Assembly: GCF_011058255.1 (NCBI RefSeq)
Contig: NZ_JAALFH010000048.1
Location: 1 to 64,000, forward strand
DNA from: Thioalkalivibrio sp. XN8
Lineage (GTDB): Bacteria > Pseudomonadota > Gammaproteobacteria > Steroidobacterales > XN24
Length of the DNA stretch: 64,000 bases
Direction of reading: 5' to 3'
The translations under genes were made by a program, and so were the position numbers. Positions within the stretch are counted from its first letter, which is position 1; every line of letters begins with the position of its first letter. This document shows positions 9,460-52,960 of this stretch, piece by piece. The notes beneath the pieces are model-generated. The model worked only from the letters and a program-made list of their open reading frames with translations. It had not been told where the DNA came from and made no database searches.

Positions 9460-11337
9460 ATGGAAACACTCGCGAACCTTGCCTTGCCGGATAATCACGG
9501 CCTCGCCGTCATCGGCCTCGCGCTGTTCGCCCTGGTGGCCCTGACGCGCCCGGCCGTGCCGCAGGAGTCCGCCAGCCTGATGGTGCTGATGCTGCTGGTG
9601 CTGGGCTTCGAGATCTTTCCCTACGCCGGCCCGGCCGGCATGGTAGATGCCGGCAACTTCCTGGCGGTGTTCGGCAACCGGGGCCTGATCACGATCCTGG
9701 CCCTGCTGGTGGTCGCCCGCGCGCTCGAGGTCACCGGGGCCATGCAGCCGCTGACCCGGCTGCTGTTGCGGGCATGGCAGGGCCCGCGCCCGCTGGCCCT
9801 GTTCGTGACGCTGCTGGTCGCCATGCTGCTGTCGGCCTTCCTGTCCAATACCCTGGTGGTGCTGGCGCTGCTGCCGGTGCTCGTCGGCGCCTCGACGCGG
9901 CTGCGCTTTCCCGCTTCCCGGGTGCTGATGCCCGCGGGCTTCGCGGCCCTGCTGGGCGGCATGACCACCACCATCGGCACCTCCACCAACCTGCTGGTGG
10001 TGACCGAGGCGGAGAGCCTCGGCCTCCCGGCTTTCGGCATGTTCAGCTTCGTCGTCCCGGCCGCCGCCGGCGCAGTGGTCGGCCTGCTGTTCCTCTGGTT
10101 GCTGGCGCCGCGCATGCTCCCCGAGCGCGACGCCCCGATCCGCCAGGCGGCGCCGCGCATCTTCAAGGCGATGTTCTTCGTCGGCGAGGACAGCTGGGCC
10201 GTGGACCGCACGCTGGCCGAACTGCGGGAGCGCACGGGCCGGCGTATGAACGTCTCGCGCGTCCAGCGTGGCGACGGCCTGCAGGTGGCCAAGCTGCCGT
10301 CGATGCGGCTGCAGGCCGGGGACCGGCTGATGGTGGCGGACACCCGCGAGCACCTGAAAGAGTTCGAGCGCCTGCTCGGCGTGCGGATGCACAGCGAGTT
10401 TGCCGGGGAGGGCGAGGAGCCGGATGACGATGGCGCGGTGGAGCAGCAGCTGGCCGAGCTGGTGGTGACGCCCGATTCGCCGCTGTACGGTCGCACGCTC
10501 TCGACCACCCGCTTCCGGCAGCGGTTCCGCCTGTTGCCGCTGGCCATTCATCGCGCCACTGCCGCCGGGATGAGCGAGGTGACGGGCGACTTCGAGGACG
10601 CGATCCTCCAGGCGGGCGACGTGATCCTCGTCCAGGGCCCGCCCGACCGGATCCGCGAGCTGCGGACCAGCGGCAGCATGCTGGTGCTCGACGGCCGGAT
10701 GGACCTCCCCAAGACTTCGCGCGCGCCGCTCGCGCTGGCCCTGGCGCTGGGCGTAGTCGTCACCGCGGGCGCCGGGTGGCTGCCGATCAGCGTGGCGGCC
10801 GTCGCGGGCGCCGCGCTGCTGATCGCCACGGGGTGCATCGGCTGGCGCGAGGTGGGTGGCGCGCTGTCGGCGCCCCTGGTGCTGATGGTGGTGATGAGCC
10901 TGGCGCTGGCGCAGGCGGCCGTGGCCACCGGCGCCGCGGCCTTCGTCGGCCAGTTGTTCCTGGCCGGCTTCGGCACCTTGCCGGCTGCGGCTTCGCTGGC
11001 CCTGGTGGTGCTGCTGGTCGCACTCGGCGGCAGCCTGGCGCCCAACGTGGCAGTGGCGCTGCTGGCGGTGCCGGTGGCGGTCGCCGTCGCCCAGGGCCTG
11101 GGCGTGGGCGCGGAGCCCTTCGTGCTGGCAGTGCTGTTCGGCGCCAACCTCAGCTTTGCCACCGCCATCGGCTCGCGGCCGAACCTGGTGGTGGCCACGG
11201 CGGGCGGTTACCTGGCGCGCGACTTCCTGCGGGTCGGACTGCCGCTTACCGTGCTGGTATGGCTGGCGGTCTCGCTGGCCCTGGTGTGGACCTACGGGAT
11301 TCCCTGGAGCCTGCCCCGGGGGCTGAATGGGGGTTGA
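9460..11337 (+). CDS. SLC13 (DASS)-type anion/dicarboxylate transporter with RCK_C domains
   Basis: 625-residue inner-membrane transporter. The first ~220 residues hold hydrophobic helices with the hairpin motif TTTIGTSTNLLV; the last ~220 hold a second set with GANLSFATAIGSRPNLVV, the two inverted-repeat substrate/ion sites of the family. Between them (about residues 225-405) lie two TrkA_C/RCK_C-like cytoplasmic domains, seen in the long bacterial SLC13-type permeases. Substrate cannot be read; sulfate or dicarboxylate are usual. Its stop overlaps the likely -35 box of the trp promoter. Confidence 0.88.
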   Translation: METLANLALPDNHGLAVIGLALFALVALTRPAVPQESASLMVLMLLVLGFEIFPYAGPAGMVDAGNFLAVFGNRGLITILALLVVARALEVTGAMQPLTRLLLRAWQGPRPLALFVTLLVAMLLSAFLSNTLVVLALLPVLVGASTRLRFPASRVLMPAGFAALLGGMTTTIGTSTNLLVVTEAESLGLPAFGMFSFVVPAAAGAVVGLLFLWLLAPRMLPERDAPIRQAAPRIFKAMFFVGEDSWAVDRTLAELRERTGRRMNVSRVQRGDGLQVAKLPSMRLQAGDRLMVADTREHLKEFERLLGVRMHSEFAGEGEEPDDDGAVEQQLAELVVTPDSPLYGRTLSTTRFRQRFRLLPLAIHRATAAGMSEVTGDFEDAILQAGDVILVQGPPDRIRELRTSGSMLVLDGRMDLPKTSRAPLALALALGVVVTAGAGWLPISVAAVAGAALLIATGCIGWREVGGALSAPLVLMVVMSLALAQAAVATGAAAFVGQLFLAGFGTLPAAASLALVVLLVALGGSLAPNVAVALLAVPVAVAVAQGLGVGAEPFVLAVLFGANLSFATAIGSRPNLVVATAGGYLARDFLRVGLPLTVLVWLAVSLALVWTYGIPWSLPRGLNGG

Positions 11338-11361
11338 CCGGCGTCCGGCTGCGGGTAACAT
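11334..11361 (+). promoter_or_regulatory. Candidate trp operon promoter
   Basis: TTGACC at 11334-11339 and TAACAT at 11356-11361 are 16 bp apart, a fair sigma-70 match. Transcription would start near 11368, only a few bases before the leader ATG at 11372, so the leader peptide would be made from an almost leaderless mRNA. No TrpR-type operator is evident. Confidence 0.45.
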
Positions 11362-11371
11362 CCCTTCCAGC

Positions 11372-11455
11372 ATGAACACTGAATGCAACTGCGCGCGCAG
11401 CCACTGGTGGTGGCCCGGGTCCCCGGAGGGGGTCCGGTCGCGCGCTGCCGCCTGA
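11372..11455 (+). CDS. trpL: trp operon leader peptide with three tandem Trp codons
   Basis: A 27-residue ORF directly upstream of trpE with three consecutive TGG codons (11405-11413, residues 12-14, HWWWPG). The Trp run in the right place is the hallmark of a ribosome-sensing leader: at low charged tRNA-Trp the ribosome would stall here and alter folding of the downstream RNA. No clear Shine-Dalgarno precedes it, which fits a start very near the 5' end of the mRNA. The ORF is rich in Arg/Ser/Ala after the Trp codons. Assignment rests on position and the Trp run. Confidence 0.82.
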   Translation: MNTECNCARSHWWWPGSPEGVRSRAAA

Positions 11456-11490
11456 CGCAGCCCACGTACCGAACCCGACTCCGGAGCCTG

Positions 11491-11546
11491 CCGGGGAAGG
11501 GTGCCCGCGACCTCCTCCCGGACGGCCCCGGTTCGCTGGAGAGAGG
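11491..11546 (+). promoter_or_regulatory. Candidate trp attenuator acting on the trpE ribosome site
   Basis: CCTCCTCC at 11511-11518 can pair, with one bulged A, with GGAGAGAGG at 11538-11546, which is the trpE Shine-Dalgarno. CCGGGGAAGG at 11491-11500 can instead pair with CCTCCTCCCGG at 11511-11521, leaving the ribosome site open. These folds are mutually exclusive. I see no hairpin followed by a T-run, so a classical terminator is not supported. Structure read by eye. Confidence 0.4.
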
Positions 11547-11547
11547 A

Positions 11548-12908
11548 ATGATGCAGACGCCCTTCGACATCGCCGCCGACCTCGATACGCCGGTCTCGGC
11601 GTATATGAAGCTGGCGCCGTTCCGGCCGCGCTTCCTGCTCGAGAGCGTGGAGGGCGCGGAGCGGCTCGGGCGGTACTCCTTCATCGGTTTCGGCGATGCG
11701 CTCAAGGTGCGGCTGGACCGCGACGGCCTGCATTTCGGCGGCCGCAGCCGCCCGGTGGACGGCGACCTGCGCGCCGGCCTGCGGGAGGCCATGGCGCTGG
11801 CGCCGACGCTGTCGCCGGAGGCCGGGCTGCCGTTCGACGGCGGGCTGGTCGGCATCGCGGCCTACGACATCGTGCGCCATTTCGAACGCGTGCCGGACGG
11901 CGGCCGGGACTTTCCCGAGGGCCTGTGGGTGGCGCCGCAGTCGCTGCTGGTGTTCGACCATCTCACGCGCCGCGCCGCACTGCTGCACGCGGGCGACGAG
12001 GCCGAGCGGCAGGCGCTGCGCCGGGAAGTGGTGCAGGCGCTGGCGGGGGGCGTGCCCTTCCGCCGCAGCGGCCGCCATGCCCCGCCGGTCGCCAGCATGA
12101 GCGAGGCGGAGTTCCTTGCTGTGGTGGAGCAGGCCAAGGGCAACATCACCGCCGGCGACGTGTTCCAGCTGGTGCTGTCGGTGCGCTTCTCGGGCCACAG
12201 CGACCTCTCGCCGTTCGAGGCCTACCGGGCCCTGCGGCTCCTGAACCCCTCGCCCTACATGTACTTTCTCGAACTCGACGGGCTGACGGTCGCCGGCTCG
12301 TCGCCCGAGGCGCTGGTCAAGCTGGAGGGGCGCCGCGCCTCGCTGCGGCCGATCGCCGGCACGCGGCCGCGCGGCGAGACGCCGGCCGAGGACCGGGCCC
12401 GCGAGGCGGAGCTGCTGGCCGACCCCAAGGAGAATGCCGAGCACGTGATGCTGGTGGACCTGGCGCGCAACGACCTGGGCCGCGTGGCGGTGCCGGGCAG
12501 CATCCGGGTGGAGCCGAGCCGGGCCATCGAGCGCTACAGCCACGTGATGCACATCGTCAGCGGCGTGACCGGCGAGCTGGAAGCCGGCCGGGATGCCTTC
12601 GACCTGTTCGCCGCCACTTTCCCCGCCGGCACCCTGGTCGGCGCGCCCAAGGTGCGGGCCATGGAGCTGATCGAGGCCTACGAGCCGGTCGGGCGCGGGC
12701 TGTATGCCGGCACGGTCGGCTATTTCGCCCGGCGCGGCGGCATGGACCAGGCGATCGCCATCCGGACCCTGGCCTTCCAGGGCGACGAATACAGTTACCA
12801 GGCGGGGGCGGGCATCGTCGCCGACAGCATCCCGGCGGCGGAGTACCGCGAAGTGCTGGCCAAGAGCGCCATCCTGCGGCGCGCCCTGCAGATGGCGGAG
12901 GAAGGCCT

Positions 12909-12912
<4 letters not shown>
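11548..12912 (+). CDS. trpE: Anthranilate synthase component I
   Basis: 454 residues, the chorismate-binding subunit that makes anthranilate with ammonia from TrpG; first committed step of tryptophan synthesis. The FLLES motif near residue 30 is the tryptophan feedback site, and the C-terminal two thirds carry the chorismate-enzyme core (IAGTRPRGET, DPKENAEHVMLVDLARNDLG, GTLVGAPKVRAMELI). Slightly shorter than the ~500-residue average because of a compact N-terminal domain. Two ATGs in tandem (11548, 11551) follow a GGAGAGAGG ribosome site. Overlaps trpG by 4 bp. Confidence 0.97.

Positions 12913-52602: not shown

Positions 52603-52960
<358 letters not shown>

Follow-up and report, generated by a model that had tools for sequence, protein, structure and literature searches.

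The trp leader and its neighbourhood

The window, i.e., the whole stretch of 64,000 nucleotides of Thioalkalivibrio sp. XN8 analysed here, carries a trpEGDCFB operon, recognised with Pfam from the gene order trpE-G-D-C-F-B found 3' of a short leader. The upstream neighbour of this leader is a CitMHS/TrkA-C transporter gene. The leader ORF and trpE are separated by 95 bases, and an in-frame ATG at 11548 offers an alternative trpE start. The initial annotation had described a leader peptide with three consecutive Trp codons ahead of trpE, and this peptide is indeed encoded there, behind a promoter of the sigma70 type (Table 1).

Table 1. Features of the trpE leader, with positions in the window. 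L006 is a second species of the genus; energies are in kcal/mol.
Feature	Position	Strand	Remarks
sigma70-type promoter, TTGACC-N16-TAACAT	11334..11361	+	hexamers identical in 3/3 genus members, spacer diverges
Trp leader peptide ORF, 27 codons, product MNTECNCARSHWWWPGSPEGVRSRAAA	11372..11455	+	
Three regulatory Trp codons, WWW (TGGTGGTGG)	11405..11413	+	9/9 identical to L006; nearly all members of the order have WWW or WW
Region 2 (GGAGGGGG)	11420..11437	+	partner of region 3 (antiterminator, -17.6) or of region 5 (duplex -23.6); 3' part of leader 41/42 identical to L006
Region 3, 5' side of the former terminator stem; can also pair with region 2	11470..11486	+	17/17 identical to L006
Region 4, 3' side of the former terminator stem; alternative partner of region 5 (-13.8)	11490..11502	+	order-wide homologues end GGGGATGGGTTTTTT
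Site of the lost U-tract, GCCCGCG	11503..11509	+	90% or more of 44 sequences from the order have T at the homologous columns; U-tract absent in window and L006
Region 5, anti-Shine-Dalgarno arm GACCTCCTCCCGGACGGC	11509..11526	+	complementary to the Shine-Dalgarno in 7/7 family members
trpE Shine-Dalgarno arm, GGAG-A-GAGG and inner pairs, predicted to be sequestered by region 5	11531..11546	+	
trpE, anthranilate synthase component I	11551..12912	+	PF04715 and PF00425; NCBIfam top match TIGR00564, under its own cut-off

An equivalent promoter, with a spacer of 16-18 bp, is present in 137 members of the order. In the window, only 10 nt separate the -10 box from the start codon of the leader, which must therefore be nearly leaderless and devoid of a Shine-Dalgarno (SD) sequence. 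Trp leader ORFs are nearly leaderless throughout the order, the distance from the -10 box to the start being 6-10 nt in 135 of 137 cases, and an SD-like 4-mer precedes the start in only two of the 137. The 5' end of the Sinorhizobium meliloti trpL RNA has likewise been reported at its ATG (PMC7298713).

A search with PF01371 and NCBIfam found no TrpR equivalog in this genome. The sole protein of the PF01371 (Trp_repressor) family, encoded at G000:C32:236801-237043 (L238), is assigned by NCBIfam to the YerC/YecD type, and a TrpR repressor as replacement control was discarded on this ground. For the same reason, attenuation may be the main control by Trp in this group.

Two mutually exclusive stems can be drawn in the leader, 2:3 (-17.6 kcal/mol; shuffle p 0.016) and 3:4 (-17.3 kcal/mol; p 0.003). 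The latter forms a terminator-like hairpin at 11473-11502 (placed by alignment to L006, with region boundaries set by eye), which carries a mismatched 2x2 internal loop and is followed by GCCCGCG. From the leader to trpE there is no T-run, the richest 9-base stretch holding three T; the reported lack of a hairpin followed by a T-run is thus borne out, with the hairpin itself still in place. The leader gave no match to Rfam at either gathering or permissive thresholds, and no NAG repeat array, a TRAP-type feature, is apparent in it.

Loss of the U-tract and constraint on the remaining parts

We collected trpE orthologues from the genus (three species), from its family, sampled by seven species only (f1), and from the order, and took the upstream regions at 149 loci. 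Nearly all of these leaders contain two to four Trp codons, a hairpin CCCAUCUCCG...CGGGGAUGGG and a U-tract; in a 44-sequence alignment, 90% or more of the sequences have T at the first tail positions. Judging from this comparison, the device started out as a classical transcription attenuator. The initial annotation had held that homologous leaders ending in a T-run terminator would speak against its reading; such terminators do occur outside the genus and, in a weak form, in the third congener (L007), but in the window and in L006 the tail is truly gone. Indeed, these two are the only ones among the 149 loci with a recognisable Trp attenuator and no tail (at most three and two T in nine bases, respectively). 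At a few other loci the tail is weakened or the whole leader has been lost, and the tails of two other family members, L009 and L011, are shortened. An assembly error was rejected as an explanation for the lack of a U-tract, since L006 is an independent genome in which it is absent as well.

The hairpin has changed together with its tail. In the window and in L006, region 3 reads CCCGAC in place of CCCAUC and region 4 GGGAAGGG in place of GGGAUGGG, which results in the mismatched internal loop and in a weaker 3:4 stem (-18.7 kcal/mol in L006, against -24.7 kcal/mol in L007). A covariance model of the order's attenuators, built from 44 relatives outside the genus, gives 17.7 bits to the window and 15.4 bits to L006, and 43-67 bits to the five remaining members of the family, of which L008 and L010 belong to the training set.

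The L007 leader shows the opposite loss. Its WWW has become GGW by a paired one-base deletion and insertion, while the hairpin and a U5 tail are retained. This single Trp codon suggests, as far as sequence can tell, that attenuation has been relaxed in the genus. Hence, both ends of the device have been tinkered with, the Trp codons in L007 and the tail in the window and L006. Elsewhere in the order, at three loci of family f7 (L184, L226 and L195), the Trp leader or the terminator is missing or set apart from trpE, and trpE of L226 is preceded by a repeat-like sequence (GTAGGAGGG... together with its complement).

Such differences could reflect an attenuator that is no longer needed in the genus and is losing its parts at random. 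Congeners broken in different places (the tail in two, two of three Trp codons in the other) and the shortened tails of L009 and L011 are what random decay would produce. On the other hand, the surviving parts are conserved far beyond neutral expectation. Between the window and L006, the TrpE proteins are 93% identical and the fourfold sites of trpE 63% identical, whereas the Trp codons and regions 2-5 are identical at 96 of 98 positions (binomial p ~4e-17 against fourfold sites). Conservation is much lower in the N-terminal portion of the leader (26/33) and from its stop codon to region 3 (11/14). Moreover, WWW is intact in both tail-less species, and region 5 is nearly invariant in the three congeners (positions 11510-11526: 17/17, 16/17 and 16/17). 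Decay is therefore improbable in our estimation, and the tail-less leader is, on this sequence evidence, under strong purifying selection and not simply drifting. Something besides intrinsic termination keeps these parts in place.

The main rival to control at the level of translation is that the leader still terminates transcription without a U-tract, either through Rho, acting on leader RNA that goes untranslated while the SD is covered, or through the GC-rich hairpin alone, with NusA/NusG. In its favour, all pairing parts, including the former terminator arms, are covered by the 96/98 identity, and there is a precedent in mycobacterial cys attenuator-like leaders without obvious terminator, for which Rho dependence was suggested (PMC1262725). 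We nevertheless regard this explanation as unlikely, if less so than decay. The hairpin itself is weakened, with two mismatched positions in the window, by comparison with L007, and a U-tailed hairpin is still found in the same genome (52777-52856, GGGGTTTTTTTTG), so that the species has not given up U-tracts. The latter hairpin, which has an eight-T tail, lies 100 bases beyond a tRNA gene (52603-52676).

Predicted sequestration of the trpE Shine-Dalgarno and the fold of the leader

The proposal that a segment of the leader pairs with the trpE SD holds. The stretch CCUCCUCC at 11511-11518 is complementary to it; in the predicted duplex (-17.2 kcal/mol), these positions (CCTCCTCC) pair with GGAG 11538-11541 and GAGG 11543-11546, and five inner pairs are added. 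In folding calculations, the trpE SD is 99% paired with upstream sequence, a level of at least 95% being reached by one of 29 window genes in a control based on GC-position gene calls and pairing probability. Shuffling of the window sequence alone gives p values of 0.035-0.09. By itself, in a GC-rich genome, this pairing is only moderately unusual; it is its conservation across the family that makes it more than chance.

Indeed, each of the seven family members has, 3' of the terminator, a C-rich sequence with complementarity to the trpE SD, and the SD/anti-SD duplex energies lie under those of shuffled controls (mean z -2.3; p<=0.05 in five of the seven). In the sister genera, the arm stands alongside the terminator. 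By the same shuffle test, z averages are near zero in the large families f7, f11 and f15, for which SD sequestration as an order-wide feature was accordingly rejected. Single members of other families (L153, L202, L228 and related loci) have a strong anti-SD stem past the terminator, for instance GCTCCTC/GAGGAGC in L228; these are possibly independent gains.

The arm also tracks its own SD. Swapping arm and SD between species weakens the pairing (p 0.0004 with the seven related taxa), and with one species per genus the cognate combination is the best of 24 permutations (p 0.04). Narrower segments give 0.0036 with seven taxa and 0.08-0.13 with one species per genus, so that the covariation looks real but modest. 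It includes compensatory differences, such as CCUCCCU/AGGGAGG in L010 and CUCCCCG/CGGGGAG in L011. The comparison thus supports region 5 as a putative SD-sequestering arm. Termination without a U-tract leaves this family-wide arm unexplained, even if Rho could act on top of it.

The initial annotation had further proposed that an upstream segment competes for the anti-SD bases. Candidate partners do exist. Region 4 can pair with region 5 at -13.8 kcal/mol, and 5:SD is the more stable of these two duplexes in the window. A stronger competitor lies in region 2, where GGAGGGGGUC (11425-11434) can form ten contiguous pairs with GACCUCCUCC (11509-11518; duplex -23.6 kcal/mol, shuffle p 0.012). Both tail-less species have this strong 2:5 complementarity, and the remaining family members a weaker one. 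Both 4:5 and 2:5 fail the swap tests, and the seven family members show no covariation for the competing stems, a lack that the initial annotation had named as speaking against its reading. Region 4 was rejected as a specific competitor for the SD arm, as it behaves like any G-rich segment (z about -0.9 to -1.1; swap p 0.48-0.60).

We also computed partition-function folds with a ribosome placed at WWW or at the stop codon. With the stalled ribosome, 5:SD is lost in L010 and L011 and partly lost in the window and L008, changes little or not at all in L007 and L009, and responds in the reverse direction in L006, the closest relative of the window species. When the downstream coding sequence is included, the mean SD accessibility in the window is the same in both states (0.33 stalled, 0.36 at the stop codon), and the outcome of a simple co-transcriptional folding varies with the barrier threshold. 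Hence, of the competitor proposal, the partners stand; release of the SD upon stalling finds no covariation and appears in the folds of some family members only. As the folds of the species disagree, the swap tests fail and the SD accessibility is unchanged, we can only infer that the leader ribosome releases the SD, and in which direction.

In the accessibility calculation, the SD stays mostly covered whether the ribosome is stalled or at the stop codon, as would be expected if the SD hairpin were a constitutive brake keeping trpE initiation low, unlinked to Trp or to the leader ribosome. The leader would then serve another purpose, for instance through a trans-acting peptide or RNA, and S. 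meliloti offers a precedent for a Trp leader that acts in trans (PMC7298713). Such a brake does not account for the conservation of regions 2 and 3, whose pairing is above that of shuffled sequences, nor for the 2:5 complementarity being strong precisely in the two tail-less species. We consider it the least probable of the three alternatives, slightly behind decay.

A putative translational attenuator and its known counterparts

We favour, with a probability of about one half, a Trp-codon-sensing, ribosome-mediated attenuator that has no intrinsic terminator and now most likely controls the initiation of trpE translation. The comparison of sequences establishes three of its elements, as far as such data reach: homology to the attenuators of the order, loss of the tail and strong constraint on the remainder. 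For the original suggestion that Trp starvation controls trpE translation rather than termination, these last two elements and the arm that tracks its own SD are favourable, and the ribosome-driven release is the part left without covariation.

In this putative attenuator, when Trp is sufficient, the leader ribosome would reach the stop codon and mask region 2; the remnant 3:4 hairpin would then form and region 5 would cover the trpE SD, turning expression off. When Trp is short, the ribosome would stall at WWW and leave region 2 exposed. Region 2 could then form the 2:3 stem, so that region 4 would be available to pair with region 5, or it could pair with region 5 itself. In both cases, region 5 would be occupied, by region 4 or by region 2, and the trpE SD would be released, turning expression on.

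It is possible, and we hold this more tentatively than the control of translation itself, that the leader illustrates a natural conversion, from ribosome-mediated attenuation of transcription to attenuation of translation, whose intermediates can be seen in one family. The sister genera, with terminator and SD hairpin, and two species of this genus, with the SD hairpin alone, might represent successive states of this conversion. Since three states occur within one order and family, the change of output level is testable with small constructs. Riboswitches exist in terminating and in translation-blocking versions; to our knowledge, a change between the two is seldom seen among close relatives. 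The rtpA leader of Bacillus subtilis also uses Trp codons for translation control.

The leader resembles the classical proteobacterial trp attenuators (E. coli trpL; the Rfam Trp leader) by its leader peptide with a run of Trp codons and by 2:3 and 3:4 stems in the same places. It differs from them by the absent U-tract, the mismatched terminator stem, the additional anti-SD arm past the terminator and the nearly leaderless start. In S. meliloti, too, the Trp leader ORF begins at the 5' end of its RNA or close to it; unlike the leader in the window, this trpL retains a working terminator and makes the sRNA rnTrpL (PMC7298713). The B. subtilis trpE gene, regulated by TRAP, combines transcription attenuation with an SD-sequestering hairpin (PMC4347634, PMC12288461). 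As in the proposal made here, ample Trp leads to a hairpin over the trpE SD, next to a terminator; the sensor there is the TRAP protein, and not a ribosome translating Trp codons, as proposed for the window. In the sister genera of the window species, arm and terminator would form a double lock resembling this B. subtilis case (PMC4347634, PMC12288461).

Leaders of other kinds share the same logic. The mycobacterial polycysteine leaders are leaderless short ORFs in which several codons for the end product follow one another and ribosome speed attenuates the translation of the next gene (Canestrari et al. 2020, as summarised in PMC9031893); they respond to cysteine, not tryptophan, belong to actinobacteria and do not descend from a trp attenuator. 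The erm, tlrB and vmlR leaders are cases of translation attenuation, with transcription attenuation in addition for tlrB and vmlR (PMC12288461, PMC9226507). There too the stalling of a leader ribosome frees a sequestered SD and both levels can be combined, but the trigger is an antibiotic and not a missing amino acid. With B. subtilis trpE, the mycobacterial leaders and tlrB/vmlR already known, the logic proposed here is not new. If correct, it would place a Trp-codon-sensing SD switch on a proteobacterial trp operon and would give the small group of amino-acid-sensing leaders that work at the translational level a Trp-responsive case. What makes it interesting is that the transition can be seen: a single order and family contain the ancestral state of one trp attenuator, the combined state and the state without terminator.
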